The notes under the pieces: generated by a model
Seen by the model: only the letters and a program-made list of their open reading frames with translations
What the model was told of the DNA's origin: nothing
Database searches by the model: none
From: an uncultured bacterium
GTDB lineage: Bacteria; Bacillota; Clostridia; Oscillospirales; Oscillospiraceae
DNA: 55,398 nt
Direction of reading: 5' to 3'
Assembly (NCBI GenBank): GCA_949293165.1
Contig: CASFCW010000015.1
Location: 1-55,398 of the forward strand
Translations under genes and position numbers: made by a program
In this document: positions 25,657 to 36,900 of the stretch, piece by piece
Numbering within the stretch: position 1 is the stretch's first letter
How the letters are laid out: every line of letters begins with the position of its first letter

Positions 25657-27696
25657 TCAATCCTCTCTGGTAATCATCATGCTGTTGTAGGGATCAATGG
25701 TCACCCGCCAGTTGGGGGGCACCACCGTGGTGGAGGTCAGCTCCTCCACAATGGCCGGGCCCATAAAGGTCTGGCCGGGCAGCAGGTTCTCCCGCTGGTA
25801 GATGTTGGCGGTGTAGGCAACCCCCTTGAACAGCGCCCGCTGGGCCCGCTCCGGCTTGGGCGTCTCGGTGCACAGCTGCTGGGCCTTCTGCTTGGGGATT
25901 TTATCCAGCACGCCCAGGCCCACCAGGCGCAGGTTGACCGACTCCACCTCGCCCTCCGGGTTGTTGAAGCCGTAAATCTGCAGGTGCTGCTCGTGGAAGG
26001 ACTTTTTCACCTGCTCCATGGCCCCGTCGTCAATGGGCCCCGGGCCGAAGTTGACCCGGACGGTGTACTCCTGGCCGATGTAGCGCAGGTCGGCGCTGCG
26101 GATGAACTGGGCCTGCTCCTCGGTGATGTTCTGCCGGCGGAGCAGCTGCATGGCCTCCTCCATCATCTCATCGAACTTTTCCGCCACCTCCGAGGCGTCA
26201 GCCTTGCTCAGGCTGTGCTGATAGGTGCGGGACAGGTCCTGCCGGATGTCGGACTGGAGCATGCCCCAGGCGGAGAAGGTGCCGGGCATCTCGGGTACCA
26301 GCACCCGCTTGATTTCCAGCTCGTCGGCGGTGGTGCAGGCGTGCATGGGGCCGGCCCCGCCGAAGGCCACCAGGACAAATTCCCGGGGATCAATGCCCTT
26401 GCGGATGGTCAGCTGGCGGATGGCGTCGGCCATCTTGGCGTCGGCAATTTCGCAGATGCCCTGGGCCAGCTCCTCCACCGTCATGTTCAGCGGCTCAGCC
26501 ACGGTGCGCATGGCCTCGATGGCCGCTTCCTTGTCCAGCTTCATCCCGCCGCCCAGGAAGCCGTCGGGGTCCAGATGGCCAAGCACCACGTTGGCGTCGG
26601 TGATGGTGGGGTTCTTGCCGCCCCGGCCATAGCAGGCGGGTCCCGGCTCCGCTCCGGCGCTGGAGGGGCCTACCCGCAGGCCGCCGGCCTCAATCCAGGC
26701 GATGGAGCCGCCGCCGGCGCCGATGGTGTGGATATTCACCATGGGTACCAGGATGGGGAAGCCCTCCAGGTACACCTCGTTGGAGATATCCGGGTGGCCG
26801 TCCACGATCATGCTCACGTCGTAGCTGGTGCCGCCCATATCCACGCCGATGAGGTTGGGATAGCCCAGCAGGCGGGAATAGGTCTGGTTGCCCACGGCGC
26901 CGCCCACGGGGCCGGACATCAGGGTCTGGATGGGGATCTCCTTGGCCATGCCGGCGGTGATAACGCCGCCGCCGCTTTGCATAATGTGTACGTTCTTATG
27001 GAAGTTCCGGTCCCGCATCCGCCCCTCCAGCAGCTCCAGGTACTTCTGGACGATGGGGGCGATGTAGGCGTTGATGACCGTGCTGCTGGTGCGCTCGTAT
27101 TCCCGCCACTCGTGGGCGATGCGGTGGGACAGGGAGACGGGCACGCCGGGGAGGAACTCGCCCAGCAGCTTCTCCACCTCCAGCTCGTGGGCGGGATTTT
27201 CATAGGCGTTGATGAGGCAGACCGCCACGGAGGTGTAGTCGCCCTTGCGGATCTCCTCCGCCGCCGCCTTCACGCTGTCCCGGTCCACCGGCCGGTACTC
27301 CCTGCCGTCGGTGAGCAGCCGCTCATCCACCTCGAAGCAATCGCATGGATGGAGCAGGGGCTCCGGCTTGCGGTAGCGCATATCAAACATGGGGGGGCGG
27401 TTGCCTCTGGCAATCTCATACACATCCCGGAAGCCCTTGGTCATCATCAGGGCAACCCTTGCGCCCTTCCGCTCCAAAAACGCGTTCAAACCAGAGGTTG
27501 TGCCGTGGACAAAGAAATCAATGTCGCTGAAATCCTTAATTTCCGCCCCGATCCCGTTCATCACCGCGTCCGACAGATTTTTGGGCGTCGTCAGCGTCTT
27601 TCCGGCCTTATACTGTCCTGTGACCTGGTCGTAAAAAACCAAATCCGTGAACGTTCCGCCGATATCTGCCGACACCCGATACCGCTTGTCTGACAT
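25657..27696 (-). CDS. hyuA: Hydantoinase/oxoprolinase subunit A (HyuA)
   Basis: 679 residues and intact. N-terminal Hydant_A_N domain starts MSDKRYRVSADIGGTFTDLV (the DxGGTFTD phosphate loop of the actin-like ATPase fold). The central hydantoinase A domain contains VMQSGGGV-like IMQSGGGVITAG, GVDMGGTSYDVS and AGGGSIAW. It hydrolyses cyclic amides such as N-methylhydantoin or 5-oxoproline using ATP together with HyuB. AGGAGGG precedes the ATG by six bases; a consensus promoter lies 84 bases upstream. It is first in the hyuA-hyuB-DUF3830-ABC transporter series. With hyuB damaged, activity of the pair is doubtful. Confidence 0.94.
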   Translation of the reverse strand: MSDKRYRVSADIGGTFTDLVFYDQVTGQYKAGKTLTTPKNLSDAVMNGIGAEIKDFSDIDFFVHGTTSGLNAFLERKGARVALMMTKGFRDVYEIARGNRPPMFDMRYRKPEPLLHPCDCFEVDERLLTDGREYRPVDRDSVKAAAEEIRKGDYTSVAVCLINAYENPAHELEVEKLLGEFLPGVPVSLSHRIAHEWREYERTSSTVINAYIAPIVQKYLELLEGRMRDRNFHKNVHIMQSGGGVITAGMAKEIPIQTLMSGPVGGAVGNQTYSRLLGYPNLIGVDMGGTSYDVSMIVDGHPDISNEVYLEGFPILVPMVNIHTIGAGGGSIAWIEAGGLRVGPSSAGAEPGPACYGRGGKNPTITDANVVLGHLDPDGFLGGGMKLDKEAAIEAMRTVAEPLNMTVEELAQGICEIADAKMADAIRQLTIRKGIDPREFVLVAFGGAGPMHACTTADELEIKRVLVPEMPGTFSAWGMLQSDIRQDLSRTYQHSLSKADASEVAEKFDEMMEEAMQLLRRQNITEEQAQFIRSADLRYIGQEYTVRVNFGPGPIDDGAMEQVKKSFHEQHLQIYGFNNPEGEVESVNLRLVGLGVLDKIPKQKAQQLCTETPKPERAQRALFKGVAYTANIYQRENLLPGQTFMGPAIVEELTSTTVVPPNWRVTIDPYNSMMITRED

Positions 27697-27779
27697 ACCG
27701 TTCCCTCCTTTTTGATATTACATCATTTTTTCATTCGTTATCCAGAATTACTTTATTTCTTTTATTGTATGTTGAAATC

Positions 27780-27808
27780 AATATACCAGATGGTCTAACC
27801 TATGTCAA
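27780..27808 (-). promoter_or_regulatory. Promoter of the hyu operon
   Basis: Minus strand: perfect TTGACA (27803-27808), 17-base spacer, TATATT (27780-27785). The 27697-28001 gap is A+T rich. Upstream of this promoter is an inverted repeat TGCAAAAT/ATTTTGCA (27900-27907 and 27923-27930) with a 15-base loop, a possible regulator site. No gene was seen there. Confidence 0.75.
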
Positions 27809-28000
27809 TGAATTTTATATTATTTGTCGAAATTTTGCTTTATTTTATGCCTATACTTTATCATCATGCAATAACATAGGAAAAATATGGGGACTTTCTT
27901 GCAAAATAACTAAATATTTTTCATTTTGCAGGATTCAACGGCATTTCTTTCATTTCCCAAATGATCTTTGGCGCGGCGGCGGACAGGACCCCCGGCAGCA

Positions 28001-28043
28001 AAAAAAAGCGGGGGACGGCAGGAAAAGCATCCTGCCGTCCCCC
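28001..28043 (-). terminator. Terminator of the perR-hydrogenase-rubrerythrin operon
   Basis: Perfect 14-bp stem (28010-28023 and 28030-28043, GGGGGACGGCAGGA arm), six-base loop, followed on the minus strand by CGC and an eight-T tract. It lies about 40 bases behind the rubrerythrin stop. Confidence 0.9.
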
Positions 28044-28083
28044 GGCGGGGTTTTGTTTTCATTCAGGTGGGCTCCATCAGCCC

Positions 28084-29277
28084 TTATTCGTAATCCTCGC
28101 AGTGGACCTCAAAATAGCTCTGGGCGTACAGGCAGGTGGGGCAGACCTCAGGGGCCGCCTTGCCCACCACAATGTGGCCGCAGTTGCGGCACTCCCAAAC
28201 CTTCACCTGGCTCTTTTCAAAGACCTGGGCGGTCTCCACGTTGTGCAGCAGGGCCCGGTAGCGCTCCTCATGGCGCTTCTCAATGGCGGCCACCAGGCGG
28301 AACTTGGCGGCCAGCTCCGGGAAGCCCTCCTCCTCGGCGGTTTTGGCAAACCCGTCGTACATGTCCGTCCACTCATAATTCTCTCCCTCCGCGGCGTGGA
28401 GCAGGTTTTCCGCCGTATCGCCCAGTCCGCCCAGCTCCTCAAACCACAGCTTGGCGTGGGCCCGCTCGTTCTCCGCCGTTTTCAGAAACAGGGCGGCAAT
28501 CTGCTCATACCCCTCGCTCTGGGCCACCTGGGAGAAGTAGGTATACTTGTTTCTGGCCTGGGACTCCCCGGCGAAGGCGGCCTCCAGGTTTTTCTCCGTC
28601 TGGGTCCCGGCGTACTTGCTGCCGCCCTTGGCGGGGGCCTCCTCTATTTTCTCAAAGGCGGAGGCGGGCTGCTTGCAGACGGGGCAGGTAAAATCCTCCG
28701 GCAGGCTTTCGCCCTCGTAAACATAGCCGCATACCTTACACTTCCACTTGCTCATGGTTTTCTGTTCTCCTTTCCCTTCCGGTTCATTGCAGGGGATGCG
28801 TTCCAGCAGCTCCCTGGCCGCCGCCGCGGGGAAATCCGGGGCGGGGGGCTGCTCCACAAACGCCTGGAGCAGCTGATGGGCGTTGGCGCTCTGGGGCAGC
28901 ATGTAGCCGGCCTCCCGGAGCAGATCCTCGTTGACCAGACGGACGGACCGGGCCACGGCGGTCATCAGCCGGTACAGGCCGTCCTCCTCCGCCCCCTCCG
29001 CCATCTGGCGGGCCATGCTCTCCTGGGCCGCCTTTCCCCCGGCCAGCTCCCTGGCCAGGGCGGTTACGGAGCCGTCCTTCTTCTGCTGGGGCGGGTACTG
29101 GGTGGGCACCATGGAGATGGCGCCGCTGGGGCAGGCGTCTGCGCACACGCCGCAGCCCAGGCATTTACTCGTGTCAATCACGCTGTTCTCCGTATCCGTG
29201 GCCCCGGTGGGGCACACGTACAGGCACAGGCAGTCCTTGGTACACAGGCGCAGGTTTCTCACCGCCACTTGTTTCAT
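28084..29277 (-). CDS. Fused 2[4Fe-4S] ferredoxin - rubredoxin - rubrerythrin - rubredoxin protein
   Basis: 397 residues in one frame. Residues 1-60 hold two [4Fe-4S] motifs ([12 protein letters not shown] and [12 protein letters not shown]). About 65-170 is helical, of unknown fold. Residues 177-205 are an N-terminal rubredoxin (CKVC...CPVC), 222-350 the ferritin-like di-iron domain ([22 protein letters not shown] ligands), and 362-385 a C-terminal rubredoxin (CRNC...CPTC). Rubrerythrins reduce peroxide to water. A ribosome site AAAGGAG and ATG at 28755 sit inside the frame exactly where free rubrerythrin would start, so both a fused and a free product are possible. Start ATG 29277 follows GGGAGG; the gene begins one base after the hydrogenase stop. 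Confidence 0.88.
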
Positions 29278-29280
29278 CCC

Positions 29281-31305
29281 TTACCGCCTCCCTTCCACTT
29301 GTTCAAACTTCCACGCGGGCACCTTGCATACAGGGCAGAGCTCCGGGGCGCTGTCCCCCACGTAGACAAAGCCGCACACAGTACACACCCAAACCCGGGT
29401 GTCCTTCAGGAAGGCCTCTCCCTCCCTCTGATAGCGGGTGAGCAGCGCATCCAGCATCCGGGTCACCTTCTCCCCCCAGACGCAGATCCGCTGGGTCCCC
29501 CGGTCTCCTGCGGCGGCGGCCGCGCCGCTCAGCCCGGGATACCCCTGCTCCAGATCCTTGCGGATCAGCTCCATCAGCCGGTCCATGCCGGCTCCCTCCG
29601 CCGGGGGCGCGGCGGCGGACAGATAGTCCGCGATTTCCCGGAACAGCGCCGCCTCCCGGTCCATGTACTGCTTCTCGCAGCCCCGGGCCAGGTTGGAACA
29701 CACGGCGGACAGCTCCCCCGGGCCCAGCTCCTTCATCTCCCCGTCAAAGGGGACGGGCGCCGCCGCCGGCCTCTTCTCCGCCTGGGGCTGCTGGGGGGAG
29801 AAGGCGCTCTTGCCTGCGCCGCACAGAGGGCAAACCCAATCCTCCGGCAGCTGCTCAAAGGGCACGCCCTCCTTCTCCTCGTCGTAGACGTAGCCGCAGA
29901 CCCCACAACCCCACTTGCTCACATGGTTTCCTCCCTTCTTCTGTATGAGATCGCTCCTGTCTGTATATGTGGTGTGCAGCAGCTTCTCCGCCAGCTCGCT
30001 GAGGGGCTGGCCGTAGAATTGCTGGTACAGGCGCTTGAGATCGGGGTTTTCCTGGCTGGAGCGGAGCTCCATCGCCCCGTCCCTGCGGTACAGGGCGGCG
30101 ATGCGGCTTTTCCGCACCTGGTCCCCGTCGGCCAGCAGGTTTTTGGGCTGGCCGCCGCCGCCGATGCAGCCGCCGGGGCAGGCCATCACCTCCACAAAGT
30201 GGTAGGTCTTTCCCCTCTGCTTCATCTGGTTGATAAACTCCCGGGCGTTGGCCGTGCCGTGAATCACCGCCACGTTCACCGTCACATCCCCCAGGGCAAC
30301 CTGGGCCTCCCGCACCCCTTCGTACCCCCGCACCTGCTCCAGCTTCAGCAGCTCCTCTGGCGCCTGGCGGCCGGTGAGGTAACAGTAGGCGGTGCGCAGG
30401 GCGGCCTCCATCACGCCGCCGGTATTGCCGAAGATAACCCCCGCTCCCGAGGCCCGACCCATCAGGGTGTCGTAGGGCGAATCCTCCAGGGCGTCCCAGT
30501 CAATCCCGGCCTCCCGGGCCCAGCGAGCCAGCTCCCGGGTGGTAATCACCTGGTCGGTGTCCCGCAGGCCGGGCTGCCCGTGAAAGACGGCGGCGGCGTT
30601 CATCTCCTCCCGCCGGACTTCAAACTTTTTGGCTGTGCAGGGGGTCAGGGCCACATGGACAACCTGCCGGGGGTCCAGGCCCACGTTCCGGGCAAAATAG
30701 GTCTTGACCGTGGCCCCCTGCATCCCAATGGGGCTCTTGGCGGTGGAGAGATGGGGCAGCAGCTCCGGGGCGTAAATTTCCGCAAAGTGTACCCAGCCGG
30801 GGCAGCAGCTGGTAAACTGGGGCAGCGGCCCCTCCCCCTGGGTCAGCCGCCGGATCAGCTCGCTGGCCTCCTCCACCACGGTGAGGTCGGCGGCGAAGTT
30901 GGTGTCCAGCACGTAATCTGCCCCCAGGGCCCGGAGCAGGGCCACCATTTTCCCCTCCACGAAGGTGCCGGGCTCCAGGCCGAACGCCTCCCCCAGGGCC
31001 ACGCGGACGGAGGGGGAGGTGCTGACCACCACCACCTTGTCCGGGTCGGCCACAGCCTGCCCCACCTGGGGGCACTCGTCCCGCTCCGTGATGCTGTCCA
31101 CCGGGCAGACGTTGGCGCACTGGCCGCAGTAGATGCACACGGCCTTTCCCCCCGTCTCCTCAAAGGTATAGGTACCGTGCACCCCCATCCGGCTGGTGCA
31201 GACCTCCTTGCACATCCCGCATCGGATGCATTTCTCCTCCCATCGCTGGATGCTTGGGTTGTCCGCCTCAATGGGGACGCGGACGGATAATGGCAGATGA
31301 TTCAA
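29281..31305 (-). CDS. [FeFe]-hydrogenase fused to two rubredoxin-type modules
   Basis: 674 residues. Two [4Fe-4S] motifs ([11 protein letters not shown] 26-36; [11 protein letters not shown] 57-67) feed an H-cluster domain with L1 TSCCPGW (165-171), L2 TPCTAKKFE (221-229) and L3 EVMACPGGC (372-380). L2 has Thr where most catalytic enzymes have Met. The tail carries a classical rubredoxin (Cys 467, 470, 492, 495), a helical segment and a second, rubrerythrin-type rubredoxin (641, 644, 657, 660). A GGGAGG site and GTG at 29922 lie in frame at the first rubredoxin, allowing a separate short product. TTG 31305 is chosen because GGGAGG lies nine bases upstream; it overlaps perR by 38 bases. Role: H2 oxidation or evolution linked to rubredoxin. 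Confidence 0.86.
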
Positions 31306-31687
31306 AATCCTCACCCTCCCTTTCCTGGTATTTCTTTCTGCACTCACTGCACAAAACCATCAGCTTCAGATCATAGGACAGGATGTGCACCCCCGCCAAT
31401 TCCTCCAGCTGCGCCGTCAGATCCCCCAGATCCACGTCCACCAGCCGGCCGCATTCCTTGCAAACCAGGTGGTCGTGGCGCTGCATCCGGTCATAGCGAT
31501 CCGGCATCCCCTCCACCGAAACCTTGCGGATGCGGTCCTCCTGCCACAGGCGGTTGAGGTTATTGTACACCGTGGCAAGGGCCACCCCCGGGCAGTCCCG
31601 GCGCAGGGCGTCAAACACCTGCTCCGCAGTCATATGGCTGCGGGAGGCCTCTACAATCTCCAAAATCCTGCGCCCATACTTGGTCAT
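31268..31687 (-). CDS. perR: Fur-family peroxide regulator (PerR type)
   Basis: 139 residues. Winged helix with [15 protein letters not shown], then regulatory-site ligands in [14 protein letters not shown], where Asp rather than Glu stands at the PerR position, and VDVDL. Two CxxC pairs (CKEC, CSEC) form the structural zinc site. PerR senses H2O2 by metal-catalysed His oxidation and then releases its operators. ATG at 31687 follows AAGGTGAT by nine bases. The gene is first in the operon, behind a PerR box, so it is autoregulated and the hydrogenase/rubrerythrin genes are induced by peroxide. Confidence 0.9.
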
Positions 31688-31702
31688 ACTCGTCACATCA
31701 CC

Positions 31703-31749
31703 TTAGAATTATTCTAATTCTATTATACACATTGTACCCGGTCAGTCAA
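31703..31749 (-). promoter_or_regulatory. PerR box and promoter of the perR operon
   Basis: Minus strand: TTGACT (31744-31749), 16-base spacer, perfect TATAAT (31722-31727). The 7-1-7 palindrome TTAGAAT-T-ATTCTAA (31703-31717) lies at the start-site region and differs from the B. subtilis PerR consensus TTATAATNATTATAA at two symmetric positions. Confidence 0.85.
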
Positions 31750-31857
31750 GTAAAATTTGTCAATCAAGCGCAGAAAAATAACCCTTCTTTTGTTATTTTC
31801 CTGAAAATGGGCCGGGTTCCATCCTTTTACAGCCCTCGCCCCAGCTCCCGGCACCGC

Positions 31858-31886
31858 TTGCCGCCGGCAGGAAAAGGTGCTATCAT
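31858..31886 (+). promoter_or_regulatory. Promoter of the flippase-like gene
   Basis: TTGCCG (31858-31863), 17-base spacer, TATCAT (31881-31886), about 61 bases before the gene. Confidence 0.55.
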
Positions 31887-31947
31887 AGCTGCAAAGACGC
31901 CGTGCGCTCCCGCCGGACCGCCGCTATCCGTTGTTCGAGGTACTCCT

Positions 31948-32985
31948 ATGAAACAAAAACCCGCCCGCCGGCATCCATTCCTCCTCTCCGCCGCCCTCAG
32001 CCTATTGACCCTGTCCGTCCTCCTCTGGCTGGTCTTTCGAAACCACTACCAGGAGATTGTCCAAAATATCCTGGCGGCCAGCGGTGGTGGGGTGGCCTGC
32101 GCCCTCCTGCTGGGCATCGTCTACCAGGGGCTGGAGGGGCTGGTCTGCTTCCTGCTGGTCAGGCGGAAGCACAGGGCGTTCACCTTTGCCCAGGCCATGG
32201 ACGCCACCTGGGTGGGGGTGTTCGGCAATGTGGTCACCTTTGCGGTGGGCGCCGTTCCCATGCAAAGCGCCTATCTGTACCGCCGGGGGGTCTCCCCGGG
32301 GGAGGCGGCGGGGATCATGGGTATGGAATATGTGCTGCACAAATCCTCCATCCTGCTTTACGGCGGGGTTATGCTCCTTCTAAGCGGGCGGGCCCTGTTC
32401 CGGCAGCATCCCACCCTGCTCCCCTACGTGGCCTTCGGCTACCTGGTGTGCACCGGGATCATCCTCCTGCTGATCCTGCTGTGTACCTGGCAGCGGTTTT
32501 ACCGGCTGATCTCCCTGGGCCTCCGGCGGCTGGAACAGCGGCCCCGGTGGGCGGAGCGGGCCCGCCGGCTCCTGCGGCAGGCGGAGGCGCTGTACCAGGG
32601 CGCCGGGGACCTGCTGCACACGCCGAAGGCGATTTGGACCGGGGTGGGGGTCAACGGGCTCAAGCTGTTCACCCTCTACTCCATCCCCTATCTTTGCGCC
32701 CGGTCCATCGGGCTGGATGGCCTCTCCCTGCTCCAGGTACAGCTCCTGTCCTCGCTGACCTACGTCATCTCCGGCGCGCTGCCCAACGTCGCGGGGATGG
32801 GGTCGGTGGAGGCGGCCTTCCTGCTGCTCTTTTCCCGGTACCTGGGCCAGGCGGACGTGTCCTCCGTGCTGATCCTCTACCGCCTGGCCACCTACTTTCT
32901 CCCCTTCCTGGTCAGCGCGGTGGTGGTGGAGGTTATCGGCCTGCGCCTGGGCGCCTCTCCCCGGCGCCACCCCAAGCAGAAATAA
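31948..32985 (+). CDS. LPG-synthase-type/UPF0104 flippase-like membrane protein
   Basis: 345 residues with about eight membrane segments, of the lysylphosphatidylglycerol-synthase transmembrane (UPF0104/YbhN-like) family. Landmarks are GVFGNVVTFAVGAVPMQSAYLYRRG near residue 90 and GALPNVAGMGSVEAAFLLLF near residue 275. The family includes lipid and polyprenyl-lipid flippase domains; no cytosolic synthase domain is attached here. ATG at 31948 follows GAGG by seven bases. It is a single-gene unit, convergent with the histidine kinase. Confidence 0.8.
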   Translation: MKQKPARRHPFLLSAALSLLTLSVLLWLVFRNHYQEIVQNILAASGGGVACALLLGIVYQGLEGLVCFLLVRRKHRAFTFAQAMDATWVGVFGNVVTFAVGAVPMQSAYLYRRGVSPGEAAGIMGMEYVLHKSSILLYGGVMLLLSGRALFRQHPTLLPYVAFGYLVCTGIILLLILLCTWQRFYRLISLGLRRLEQRPRWAERARRLLRQAEALYQGAGDLLHTPKAIWTGVGVNGLKLFTLYSIPYLCARSIGLDGLSLLQVQLLSSLTYVISGALPNVAGMGSVEAAFLLLFSRYLGQADVSSVLILYRLATYFLPFLVSAVVVEVIGLRLGASPRRHPKQK

Positions 32986-32988
32986 ACT

Positions 32989-33013
32989 GTCCCCCTGCCT
33001 GCGGCAGGGGGAC
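32989..33013. terminator. Hairpin between flippase-like and kinase genes
   Basis: Perfect 11-bp stem GTCCCCCTGCC/GGCAGGGGGAC with a three-base loop and no T run, between convergent genes. Confidence 0.55.
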
Positions 33014-33029
33014 ACCCATAGTATAGGCC

Positions 33030-34991
33030 TTATTCTGTGGGCAGGCGCAGGGTAAACACGCTGCCCCGGCCGGGCAGGGAGTCCGCCTCCACCGTGCCCC
33101 CGTGTTCCAGGGCGATGATCCGCACCAGGTACAGCCCCAGGCCGTCCCCGCTGCCGTCCCCCCGGCTGGTAAAACTCCGCTCAAACACGTGGGGCAGGTT
33201 CTCCGGGGGGATGCCCGCCCCATTGTCCCGCACGGAGATGAGCGCCGTCCGCTCCTTCACGGCCAGTTCCAGCGTAACCTGGCCGTCCGGGGGCGTAAAG
33301 GACAGGGCGTTGTAGCACAGGTTTTCCAGCGCCACATCCAGCCGCTCCCTCCTGCCCTGCACCCAAACCAACTCCCCAGGCAGGCGCAGCCGGAAGGACA
33401 GGCCGGAAACCTCCATGTCCGGGCGGTTGGTCTCATAAAACTCCTGCAGGTACCGGTTCAGGCAGATGGATTCCGGCGGGTGGGCCCCCCGCTCCCCTCT
33501 GGAAAAGTCCTGCAGCACGTCGAAGCGGTCGCCCACCACCTCCACCCGGTCCAGCAGGGTGTTCAGGTAGCCGGCGGTCTCCGGGTCAAGGGCCTCGTTG
33601 CCGGTGCGAACCAGTTCCCCATAGCTGCGCAGGGCGGACAGGGGGTTTTTCAGGTCGTGGAGCAGGTTGGCCAGCAGCTCCCGCCGCTCCGACAGCAGGA
33701 CGGACAGGCTGTTGGTTTTCCGCTCCACCTCCTCCTGCAAATGCAGGGTCAGGCGGTGATTTTCCCGGGTCAGCAAAACCTCACGGCGCACCATCTGGGC
33801 GGAAAAGCCCAGGACCAGGCCATAGCCGCCGTACTCCTCCAGCCAGGCGCCCCGGATGGGCTCAAACAGATTGGCCGACGCCGCCGACGCGGCGATGAAC
33901 AGGCCGTACAGCCCCGTCGCGCACAGGAGGCAGTGGCCCAGCAGCCGATCCTTGGCCAGGGCGTAGCCGGACAGGTACATCAGATACAGCCCTGCCGCCA
34001 GCTTCCACAGAAAGAGCAGGTTCCCATATAGATTGATGAAGCCGGGGACGTATGGTAAAATAAACACCGGAAGTACCGCCGTGGCAAGGCACAGCCCTGC
34101 CGCCGCCGGCACAGCGCCCCAGCGGTGATAATTTGCCCCGGCGCAACCGGCCAGCTCCCCCGACATCAGCACCGCGCACAGCAGCACCCCGTTGCCGCAC
34201 ACGTCCTCCAGGGCATACAGCGGCCGGACGGAGGGGACGCCCAGGCCCCGGAGGAAGGGATAGCACACCCGCAGGGCAAACAGCAGGCTCAGCAGGCCCA
34301 TCCATCTGGTCAGCCTGTCCCGCCCCAGCGCCCACTGCGCCATGTGGAGCAGGGCGATGGCCAGGGCGGTAAAGCACAAAAACCCATACACCGCCATCCG
34401 GAAAACCACCATCCTTGTTACGGCGCCCGGCGTCCCCACCGCGGGCGGATAGTACATCCCGGAGTAATAGTGGGTATAGTTGGCGCACTGCACGATAATC
34501 TCCGTGCCCCCCTCCGCCCGGAAGGCGTATATCCCGTCCAGCACCCGGGGGGCGTAGGGCTCCAGGCTGCCCTGTTCCCCCGCCAGCTCCCCGTTGATGT
34601 AGACCCGGCTCGCGCACAGCAGCTCCTGGAAATAGAGTGCCAGCTCCACAGGCTCCCCTGGATTCTCCAGGATGAGGCGGTAGGTGGCCGTCCCGTAGGG
34701 GCTGTCCAGATGGGCGGAGAAATTCCCATATTGACCGATGTAGGTATACTCCTCCGGGGCTGCACCCCCCTGAAAATCTTCCGGTGCCAGCAGCTGCCCG
34801 GGGTAATACTCCCAGCCATCCACCAGGAAAGCCACCTGCTCCAAGTCACCCTGAAGCACATTGTAGCCGTATCCCCCCGGCAGGGCTGCGGTGTACTTAT
34901 TGTCCAGCCGGTACAGCAGGGCGCAAGCTCCCATCCCCGCCAGCAATACGGCGGCCAGAAGCAGAATCTGCACGTTAACCTGTTTTCGCAT
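33030..34991 (-). CDS. Membrane sensor histidine kinase with 7TMR-DISM-like sensor
   Basis: 653 residues. After an N-terminal membrane anchor there is an extracellular beta-rich domain (about 30-185, galactose-binding-like 7TMR-DISM type with RVYINGELAGEQG). Then come about seven membrane segments (190-400), a coiled coil (TLHLQEEVERKTNSL), H-box LLHDLKNPLSALRSY and the ATPase domain with N-box ENLCYNALSF, G1 DNGAGIPP and G2 GDGLGLYLVR. It would phosphorylate the OmpR-type regulator encoded 2 kb away. The ATG has GAGGTGA close upstream. Only 25 bases separate it from the divergent surface-protein gene. Confidence 0.92.
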   Translation of the reverse strand: MRKQVNVQILLLAAVLLAGMGACALLYRLDNKYTAALPGGYGYNVLQGDLEQVAFLVDGWEYYPGQLLAPEDFQGGAAPEEYTYIGQYGNFSAHLDSPYGTATYRLILENPGEPVELALYFQELLCASRVYINGELAGEQGSLEPYAPRVLDGIYAFRAEGGTEIIVQCANYTHYYSGMYYPPAVGTPGAVTRMVVFRMAVYGFLCFTALAIALLHMAQWALGRDRLTRWMGLLSLLFALRVCYPFLRGLGVPSVRPLYALEDVCGNGVLLCAVLMSGELAGCAGANYHRWGAVPAAAGLCLATAVLPVFILPYVPGFINLYGNLLFLWKLAAGLYLMYLSGYALAKDRLLGHCLLCATGLYGLFIAASAASANLFEPIRGAWLEEYGGYGLVLGFSAQMVRREVLLTRENHRLTLHLQEEVERKTNSLSVLLSERRELLANLLHDLKNPLSALRSYGELVRTGNEALDPETAGYLNTLLDRVEVVGDRFDVLQDFSRGERGAHPPESICLNRYLQEFYETNRPDMEVSGLSFRLRLPGELVWVQGRRERLDVALENLCYNALSFTPPDGQVTLELAVKERTALISVRDNGAGIPPENLPHVFERSFTSRGDGSGDGLGLYLVRIIALEHGGTVEADSLPGRGSVFTLRLPTE

Positions 34992-35016
34992 AAGGTCACC
35001 TCACAGGAGGAATGGA

Positions 35017-36900
35017 ATGATGAATGTGCCAATCTCAAAGCCGCTGGCCCTGGCCTGCCTGCTGGCCTTCTGCTGGGGCTGCGGTCCAACCGCCGCGGCG
35101 GCAGATCTGCCGGCCGATTCCGGCCAAGGATCGTATATCGGGGAATCTGGCCAGCCGGAGCCTGATACCGACCCCTCCCCGGAAGGAGATGCCCAGCCGG
35201 AGGAGGGCAATCCGTCCCCGGAGCGGCCGGAGCCTGATGCCGACCCTGCCCCCTCCCCGGAGGGGGATGCCCAGCCGGGAGAGGATGGCCAGCTCCCGGA
35301 AATCGGCGGGCAGCAGCCGGACCTGCCAGAGGGCGGCACAGAGGAGCCGGAGGCTGCGTCCTACACCGTCACCCTGGGCCAGCAGGTGGTCGGCCAGGAT
35401 GAATCGCTGAGCTTTACCACCGTCTCCACCGCCTTTTCAGGCAGCGCGCCGGAGGGCTACTACCCCGGGAACCTGACGGTGGAGCTCACCGGCCAGGTGG
35501 TGGTGGAGGCCGGCGGGTTTCTGTCCGTTGGGACACTGTCCATAGGCGGTCCGGAGGCCAGCCCTGTGATTACCGGCGCAGGCTCCATTGTGGTGAAGGC
35601 AGGCGGCCAGCTTGTCCTGACCGGCGCCATCCTGGCCCCCCAGGGAGAGGGCCCCATGATCGTCCAGGAGACGGGGGGCTCCGTGGAAACGGTGGCCGTC
35701 ACGGCGGAGGACGGCCTCATCCAGTGGGCCAGTCCCCTGGTCTGTAACCTCTATGACAGTCCGGAGCAGCTCTGGCTCCCGGCTGGGACCCCTCTCACCG
35801 CCGACCTGCTGCCCACATCCATGTATGTAACCCTTCAGCAGCAGGGCCGGGAGGACCAGACGGAGGTGGCCCTGTCCTGGGACCTCAGCGGTTATGACGG
35901 CCGTACCGACGGGGAACTGGCCCTCGCCGGCGTCTTTCTGGATGAAGATGGCCAGCCTCTGCCCAGCCTGCGTCCCCTGGAGCTCGCCGTAGGCTGGTAC
36001 ACCCCCGGTACCCTGGTGGTGACCGACGCCCAGTGGAAGGGCTCCACCGTCCCCACCGTACAGCTGACGGTTCCGGAGCTGCCGGAATACGCCGACGTGT
36101 GGGGGGAGACCTCCACCGACGGCGGGGACACTTGGATTTCCTGGACGGATGAGGACGTTTTCTTCATCGTGGAGGTGGAGAACGAGGGCTGGGCCTGCAT
36201 TTTCGTCCTCCCTGACGATACCCCCCGCCTGTTCCGCATTGCCGCCCAGGATACCTGGGCCGACCCCTATGCCTACTGGCAGTCGGAGTCCTTCCAGCTG
36301 GGCCCGCCGGAGGATGGGGAGGACTCAGGGGGCAACCGGGGCGGCAGCACCACCCCCGACTCCCCTGACCGTGAGCCGGAGCCTGCCCCCCGTCCGGACA
36401 CCTCCACAGCCACCCAGCCTGTGCTGGGGAATGCCATTCCCCACCCCTCCCAACCGGAGGAGCAGCCTCTAGAGCCGGGGCAGCCGGAGCTTTCCCACCC
36501 CTCCGCCCAACCGGAGCAGACGCCCCAGGCGGGGAGCGGCGCCCAGCAGTCCCAGCCAGACCAGGAATCCCCGGTTTCAGAGGCGCCTGCCGTCCGGCCT
36601 GAACACCCCGTCCAGCTGGAAGGGGCCGGGCATCCCTCCTCCCAGGCCCAGACGCAGCCGCTGCCAACCGTCCCAGACCCGGCTGGGGAGGCCGACCAGG
36701 AGGAGACGCCCGGCCAGGCTGCGGGGCCCGCCTCTCCCCCCTCGGATGAGACGGAGCCGGGACCGGCAGAGGCCGGAACCGGGACGGCCGACGCCCCAAC
36801 CGCCCCCTCTGTGCCGGTTCAAGCAGCGCCTGCCGTGGTTCTCATCGCCCTGTGCGCCGCTGCCGCCGGGTGGTTCTGGACCCTCCGCCGGAGACGATAA
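35017..36900 (+). CDS. Pro/Glu-rich surface protein with C-terminal membrane anchor
   Basis: 627 residues, no family recognised. A signal peptide (MMNVPISKPLALACLLAFCW...) with a possible weak lipobox GC leads into an acidic Pro-rich stretch with two imperfect PEPD-DP...SPEGDAQP repeats (about 45-100). A beta-strand-rich part (110-450) follows, including a carpet of short Gly/Val strands (LTVELTGQVVVEAGGFLSVG) like parallel-beta-helix proteins. A second Pro/Gln/Glu-rich stalk (460-600) ends in one membrane segment and RRRR; there is no LPxTG sorting signal. The ATG at 35017 follows GGAGG by six bases. It lies between a kinase and a response regulator on the opposite strand, suggesting a sensory or regulated wall-spanning role. 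Confidence 0.78.
   Translation: MMNVPISKPLALACLLAFCWGCGPTAAAADLPADSGQGSYIGESGQPEPDTDPSPEGDAQPEEGNPSPERPEPDADPAPSPEGDAQPGEDGQLPEIGGQQPDLPEGGTEEPEAASYTVTLGQQVVGQDESLSFTTVSTAFSGSAPEGYYPGNLTVELTGQVVVEAGGFLSVGTLSIGGPEASPVITGAGSIVVKAGGQLVLTGAILAPQGEGPMIVQETGGSVETVAVTAEDGLIQWASPLVCNLYDSPEQLWLPAGTPLTADLLPTSMYVTLQQQGREDQTEVALSWDLSGYDGRTDGELALAGVFLDEDGQPLPSLRPLELAVGWYTPGTLVVTDAQWKGSTVPTVQLTVPELPEYADVWGETSTDGGDTWISWTDEDVFFIVEVENEGWACIFVLPDDTPRLFRIAAQDTWADPYAYWQSESFQLGPPEDGEDSGGNRGGSTTPDSPDREPEPAPRPDTSTATQPVLGNAIPHPSQPEEQPLEPGQPELSHPSAQPEQTPQAGSGAQQSQPDQESPVSEAPAVRPEHPVQLEGAGHPSSQAQTQPLPTVPDPAGEADQEETPGQAAGPASPPSDETEPGPAEAGTGTADAPTAPSVPVQAAPAVVLIALCAAAAGWFWTLRRRR

Follow-up and report, generated by a model that had tools for sequence, protein, structure and literature searches.

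Does an operon that places an [FeFe]-hydrogenase between a peroxide-type regulator and a rubrerythrin encode a peroxide reductase fed by H2? The question is raised by a locus on the minus strand (31749-28009) of contig CASFCW010000015.1 from host genome G000, of which a stretch of 55,398 nucleotides (hereafter the window) was analysed. The operon reads perR, then a hydrogenase of 677 amino acids (aa) with a tail (RHR) of rubredoxin, helical part (relay) and second rubredoxin (HydA:RHR), and then a ferredoxin-rubredoxin-rubrerythrin-rubredoxin protein of 397 aa (FdRbr). A one-chain hydrogenase-rubrerythrin, CperHydR, reduces H2O2 with H2 in vitro according to the available part of its description (PMC11926857, JACS 2025). 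The operon is interpreted here as a split, two-protein form of such proteins (HydR), and as a likely PerR-controlled peroxide reductase with electrons predicted to come from H2; taken as a whole, this interpretation commands about equal belief and doubt.

Relation to one-chain hydrogenase-rubrerythrins

An H2-driven peroxide reductase has a precedent, and for the window operon the function is plausible by descent and by motif. The nearest relative, G589, carries HydR at the orthologous locus: downstream of perR, a single reading frame encodes HydA, rubredoxin and rubrerythrin. Window positions 29938-35681 align with G589 at 82% and positions 26489-28780 at 92%; the segment between them (28781-29937; 1,157 base pairs, bp) is missing from G589, where 86 bp stand in its place, and the two loci differ mainly by this segment. 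Regarding the encoded proteins, the G589 HydR is 90% identical to the window in HydA and 99% in the rubrerythrin domain. The window operon shares common descent with HydR genes, a link that is drawn through G589 and other HydR genes and not through the HydR sequence of C. perfringens. The L2 motif of the window hydrogenase, TPCTAKKFE, is the same as in CperHydR, an enzyme strongly biased toward H2 oxidation (PMC11926857, available part). An earlier sequence-only reading of this DNA had proposed an H2:peroxide oxidoreductase; the analogy with CperHydR and the common L2 motif favour that proposal, and the failure to find HydE, HydF and HydG in the host detracts from it.

Operon organization and regulation

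The operon begins with a sigma-70-type promoter (TTGACT-16-TATAAT, 31722..31749, 11 of 12 matches; all features given here and below are on the minus strand). Between its -10 hexamer and the perR start lies a PerR-type Fur-family box (31703..31717), the perfect 7-1-7 palindrome TTAGAATAATTCTAA with zero mismatches. For 7-1-7 sites with up to two mismatches, 0.19 were expected per shuffled window, and at least one occurred in 18 of 100 shuffles. The palindromic 7-1-7 box present at perR's own promoter, TTAGAATNATTCTAA, is two changes away from what we take to be the PerR-box consensus, TTATAATNATTATAA.

The perR gene (31268..31687) encodes 139 aa from ATG 31687, a GTG start at 31696 being possible, and its product belongs to the Fur family. 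The best match in the Protein Data Bank (PDB), and thereby the best solved relative, is B. subtilis PerR 2fe3 (E 2.3e-14); by alignment to this structure the regulatory metal ligands H37, D85, H91, H93 and D104 (in what we presume to be the PerR numbering) are identical residues in the window protein. Among NCBIfam models the best hit is one for PerR (68.6 bits, below its cut-off of 200), and no NCBIfam PerR cut-off was reached.

The hydrogenase gene overlaps perR by 47 bases. Its start is most likely GTG 31314, because the resulting 677 aa are the commonest length among relatives of the same architecture (18/68); a longer reading, from 31347, has 688 aa. The FdRbr gene follows after a gap of 3 bases, and an intrinsic terminator with a 15-bp stem and a T tract was predicted at 28009..28044. 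Promoter, gene spacing and terminator lead to the prediction of a single transcription unit for the three genes. The parts already named by the sequence-only reading (PerR box at the promoter, perR, hydrogenase with two rubredoxins, FdRbr, tight junctions and terminator) were confirmed.

Control by PerR, which the same reading had assumed, is backed by the box: among 21 related loci, selected for a perR of at least 48% identity (those with weaker matches stood outside the selection), the palindrome is perfect in 14, and of the 11 that carry a hydrogenase 10 have it perfect; the box at each locus is the best match in about 190 bases, with shuffle p from 0 to 0.26. perR lies directly upstream in all three split loci and in 8 of the 16 fused loci, the latter figure being a lower bound (L212 stops at the contig end). 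PerR would release the operon upon peroxide, and the operon would tie H2 oxidation to PerR control in anaerobes. In P0337, a HydR of 761 aa, the N-terminal stretch resembles the PerR C-terminus by eye, as a trace of the perR overlap.

The hydrogenase and its electron source

HydA:RHR (29281..31314) is a group A [FeFe]-hydrogenase with two [4Fe-4S] motifs, an H domain and a small-subunit domain; Pfam reported Fe_hyd_lg_C and Fe_hyd_SSU, then Rubredoxin and RUBY_RBDX. The protein scored 476 bits with TIGR02512 (cut-off 406), and the group A motifs L1, L2 and L3 are all present. Motif reading placed the two [4Fe-4S] F-cluster motifs at 31102..31230 and the H-cluster motifs (L1 as TSCCPGW, L2 and L3) at 30145..30813; the first and second rubredoxins, located by Pfam and motifs, occupy 29821..29907 and 29326..29385. 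With residues given in what is presumably CpI numbering, C299 and E279/E282 are kept in all 184 hydrogenases in which a loose L1 pattern matched and S319 in 183 of them, and the L3 pattern was unmatched in 3 of 23 loci (L218, L219, L220). The ratio of nonsynonymous to synonymous substitution rates (dN/dS) was 0.03-0.12 over nine hydrogenase pairs (NG86; dS above 0.8 in seven), four pairs lacking maturases having 0.05-0.06 and the single pair with maturases 0.03.

In the favoured interpretation H2 would be split at the H-cluster, and electrons would pass from the F-clusters to rubredoxin 1, on to the relay and rubredoxin 2, and through the FdRbr rubredoxins to the FdRbr diiron site, where H2O2 would become water. 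Several results weigh against it. HydE, HydF and HydG were not over the cut-off in the host, whose assembly is 95% complete. None of the three was found in 17 of the 23 tested clade genomes (host included; the distant clade member G925 was left out), and all three in 6; the maturase-negative genomes include the single-contig G128 and several at 98-100% completeness. Within the genus, HydG was above the cut-off in just 1 of 64 genomes. As a control for these searches, one of 14 control genomes (T. maritima) was over the cut-off in each search. In addition, the window branch has a dN/dS of 0.10-0.12, about twice that of other pairs, and no upstream perR was found for 8 of the 16 fused loci. Since HydE, HydF and HydG were not found, H2 activation via the known maturation route is impossible in the host unless all three genes lie outside its 95%-complete assembly.

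A further [FeFe]-hydrogenase of the host belongs to group B1 (TIGR04105, 617 bits; L235, G000:C11:34179-34889) and is likewise without known maturases. [FeFe]-hydrogenases with one or more maturases missing are reported for Rhodospirillum rubrum, Entamoeba and Mastigamoeba in the available part of PMC4967309. Neither maturases nor rubrerythrin are mentioned in the main text of the paper on gut group B hydrogenases (PMC12578642) or in the review PMC8924675.

Missing maturases would be expected if the hydrogenase domain, without its 2Fe subcluster, served as an iron-sulfur conduit, supplying the rubredoxins and rubrerythrin with electrons from reduced ferredoxin instead of H2; a ferredoxin donor is the main rival to H2. 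The failure to find HydEFG in 17 of the 23 clade genomes tested, the host among them, speaks for such a conduit, as does the statement, in the available part of PMC6984386, that hydrogenases produced in E. coli without HydEFG have no 2Fe subsite and are inactive. The relay gene is, moreover, unjoined to a hydrogenase in 79 of the 80 loci listed (see below), where another donor presumably operates. However, the residues for H2 chemistry and proton transfer (E279/E282, C299/C300 and S319) are conserved throughout the 17 tested genomes in which no maturases were found (L3 pattern unmatched in 2), and dN/dS remains low; the conduit is a serious possibility that we nevertheless doubt. Far less credible is the view of the hydrogenase as a remnant in decay after the host's loss of H2 metabolism, with only perR and the rubrerythrin still of consequence: the missing maturases and the somewhat raised dN/dS of the window branch agree with decay, but reading frame and motifs are intact, dN/dS is about 0.1, the architecture occurs in at least 68 proteins and the host also retains its group B [FeFe]-hydrogenase. 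We consider this very improbable.

H2 remains the favoured electron source, yet an unproven one, because HydEFG were not found, though the catalytic residues are kept. The fullest version of this interpretation would be a functional H2-driven reductase of peroxide, its H-cluster assembled by a new route without HydE, HydF and HydG, combined with two proteins per gene from conserved internal starts (see below); as a whole it is rather unlikely. A hydrogenase under purifying selection without HydEFG suggests either a maturation route other than the known one or a hydrogenase fold that merely conducts electrons for the defence against peroxide.

FdRbr and the relay domain

FdRbr (28084..29277) is composed, in order, of a two-cluster ferredoxin, a helical linker, a rubredoxin, a rubrerythrin and a further rubredoxin (Pfam: Fer4, RUBY_RBDX, Rubrerythrin, RUBY_RBDX). 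The core of the four-helix diiron rubrerythrin domain was located at 28258..28578 by Pfam and PDB alignment, and FdRbr residues 223-396 align to C. difficile rubrerythrin 9fj2 (E 6.1e-63). The ferredoxin part (29128..29244, by motif reading) holds one atypical and one typical cluster motif; together with the helical linker it was without a match in the PDB search at E 0.001. This part would allow reduced ferredoxin to feed the same diiron site. The atypical motif, C-x3-C-x-C-x3-CP (window 29209-29244), is nearly invariant.

Two features go beyond the sequence-only reading. One is the relay (29392..29772, bounds approximate) between the two rubredoxins of the hydrogenase, which, by structure model and alignment, is a separate helical domain with a diverged rubrerythrin (ferritin-like) fold, followed by the C-terminal rubredoxin. 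The stretch that separates the two rubredoxins of the window hydrogenase contains no histidine, and none is invariant across the alignment of 19; the diiron ligands, which include histidine, are not provided by the relay domain. When profiles of relay and rubrerythrin were compared, the alignment covered the rubredoxin only. The domain probably functions as an electron relay.

The other feature is a pair of internal start sites. A Shine-Dalgarno sequence AAGGGAGGA with a GTG start (29922) precedes the RHR part (29920..29937), and AAAGGAGAA with an ATG start (28755) precedes the rubredoxin-rubrerythrin-rubredoxin part of FdRbr (28753..28773). At the RHR site a start codon is present in all 19 hydrogenase genes and the hybridisation energy is -8 or below in 17, the site being weak in L023 and L206. 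For the FdRbr site the energy is -8 or below in all 27 genes with the first rubredoxin by pattern, out of 42 examined (among the remaining 15, which stood outside the test, at least 3 have a stretch resembling a rubredoxin), and the motif is read in differing frames (KGE, TEE and KKEK peptides). Glycine codons just upstream of the internal starts are GGA in 32 of 35 cases, compared with 6.8 expected from each gene's usage (27 genes: 19 hydrogenase, 8 FdRbr). These patterns suggest internal initiation under selection, and because the Shine-Dalgarno sites with start codons are conserved, free relay chains of roughly 213 aa and free rubrerythrin chains of roughly 223 aa are predicted, which the internal starts would supply as extra protein. 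Alternatively, the sites could be recent fossils of separate genes. No literature on internal translation initiation with rubrerythrin was found.

Distribution of the architectures

A genome search for co-occurrence and fusion of these domains, which the sequence-only reading had suggested as a check, yielded the hydrogenase-rubredoxin-relay architecture in at least 68 proteins among the matches listed, and two further complete split operons (L081, L200); a unique local fusion was rejected on these grounds. The RHR survey comprised 80 loci (L026-L105) among the matches listed, 570 being confirmed. One of the 80, L081 from a Gemmiger metagenome-assembled genome, is a complete split operon, and RHR is unjoined to a hydrogenase in the other 79. 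All 80 loci contain a ferredoxin gene of the FdRbr kind; it overlaps RHR or follows it directly in 78 of them (the exceptions being L039 and L087), and in 46 it is joined to a rubrerythrin. The pair of RHR and ferredoxin was seen in clostridia, spirochaetes, Bacteroidales, Coriobacteriaceae and Methanomassiliicoccaceae; we know of no description of such a redox pair of anaerobes.

Regarding the 400 genomes of the family, an RHR match at E <= 1e-50 was obtained in 31, joined to a hydrogenase in two (G000, G668) and unfused in 29. Regarding the 394 genomes of the order, the hydrogenase clade was detected at E <= 1e-150 in 19, namely one split, 12 one-chain HydR, five stand-alone and one distant. 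A single genus contains three states: perR-RHR-FdRbr without a hydrogenase in the locus (G587, 68-89% identical to the window by part), the split operon of the window, and HydR (G128, G039, G577, G583, G589).

The G587 locus and the 29 of 31 family genomes with an unfused relay would also fit a relay-FdRbr pair that is a complete peroxide reductase by itself, in front of which a hydrogenase was captured for co-regulation with little direct electron transfer. Many lineages, however, carry HydA-Rub-Rbr-Rub, in which the hydrogenase is joined to rubrerythrin without relay and ferredoxin, and such a capture is regarded as improbable.

Evolution of split and one-chain forms

Mapped onto a HydA tree of 96 domains (53 one-chain, 41 split and 2 stand-alone; near-duplicates at 93% removed within each label), the split and fused labels change 29 times, and supported branches force at least 14 of these changes. 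Neither label formed one side of a branch in any of 200 bootstrap trees (0%), the bootstrap being not fully settled (correlation 0.945), and an earlier tree of 103 rows likewise had 29 changes. The removal of duplicates within labels favours interleaving, which renders the shuffle controls of the HydA tree uninformative; the change count stands. Sister pairs were window/L196, L206/P0023, P0026/P0306, P0012/P0313 and P0024/P0336. The hydrogenase domains of L206 and P0023, one from a split protein and the other from a one-chain HydR, are very similar (end branches 0.003 and 0.016), which points to a recent conversion. In the RHR tree (128 rows, 39 of them split) the split forms are mostly clustered, with 9 changes versus 33.9 in shuffles; since at least 3 changes are forced there, the fusion of RHR to the hydrogenase likely occurred more than once.

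The junctions of 134 one-chain proteins or loci were reduced to 80 different entries, of which 33 were testable, 46 were short and one (P0344) had no located rubredoxin end. Similarity to RHR or to the ferredoxin linker reaches p <= 0.02 in ten of the 33, with about one expected by chance (two tests each), and five (P0276, P0268, P0279, P0337, P0331) were reached by none of 300 shuffles (relay part, ferredoxin linker or both). The entire first rubredoxin of RHR is retained in P0276, P0268 and P0279, and the rubredoxins of P0298, P0280 and P0306 look by eye like hybrids of both parents. Because some one-chain proteins keep these remnants of the split operon, repeated deletions from split to fused are the likelier course, and the HydR chimeras of these bacteria would derive from the split operon via deletion of the relay and ferredoxin parts. 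Two observations run counter to this: at p 0.02 no remnant is seen in 23 of the 33 testable junctions, and the L205 junction has p 0.007, yet its near-identical relative P0343 has p 0.25. The reverse direction, from fused to split, is less likely; the tree by itself cannot separate gain from loss. HydR as the starting state of the window locus was also held less likely, with several HydR keeping relay or linker remnants and the split relay domains mostly clustering. The forced changes in the HydA tree offer a set of natural comparisons for finding out which electron path matters.

Downstream of the operon and on the same strand (window 25657-27696) lies a gene that we take, from its sequence, to encode a hydantoinase/oxoprolinase subunit A; it has its own promoter-like site near 27808.

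Comparison with known systems

The sequence-only reading stated that no described enzyme had this combined architecture. As to function this was wrong, CperHydR being published (PMC11926857), and the idea of an enzyme without described relatives was rejected; as to the split arrangement of hydrogenase and rubrerythrin, no describing paper was found in the literature searched. A hydrogenase that carries a rubredoxin-rubrerythrin-rubredoxin domain is among those listed by a screen from 2019 (PMC6984386, available part). The literature searched held no paper in which FeFe hydrogenase, rubrerythrin and PerR come together. Neither PerR nor operon occurs as a word in the main text of PMC11926857, PerR boxes are not mentioned in PMC11481553 and rubrerythrin is not mentioned in PMC13397568.

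Rubrerythrins (C. difficile 9fj2, P. furiosus 1nnq) have the diiron four-helix domain and the C-terminal rubredoxin in common with FdRbr, which differs by its extra N-terminal rubredoxin and its N-terminal ferredoxin with a helical linker of its own. CpII-like uptake [FeFe]-hydrogenases are, to our knowledge, without a rubredoxin or rubrerythrin module. They have Thr and Ala in L2 in common with the window, residues tied to the bias toward H2 oxidation in the available part of PMC11926857. The orphan hydrogenases of R. rubrum, Entamoeba and Mastigamoeba are similar in their missing maturases; a link to a peroxide reductase operon is unstated in the available part of PMC4967309.

The closest counterpart is CperHydR, which, like the window operon, comprises two [4Fe-4S] F-clusters, the TPCTAKKFE motif, two rubredoxin centres and a rubrerythrin diiron domain, with H2 and H2O2 as proposed substrates (PMC11926857, available part). 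CperHydR is one chain, whereas the window has two proteins plus a relay domain, a second ferredoxin and an upstream perR with its box; a HydR unites hydrogenase and rubrerythrin in one polypeptide, and in the window they are encoded by two genes 3 bases apart. The available part of the same paper reports maturation of CperHydR with C. acetobutylicum HydEFG or with a synthetic precursor, whereas none of HydEFG was found in the window host. The split form with its repeated conversion, the relay, the internal starts and the missing maturases extend what was reported for CperHydR. HydR has been presented as a single and highly unusual chimera, and the split operon suggests how such chimeras may have originated.

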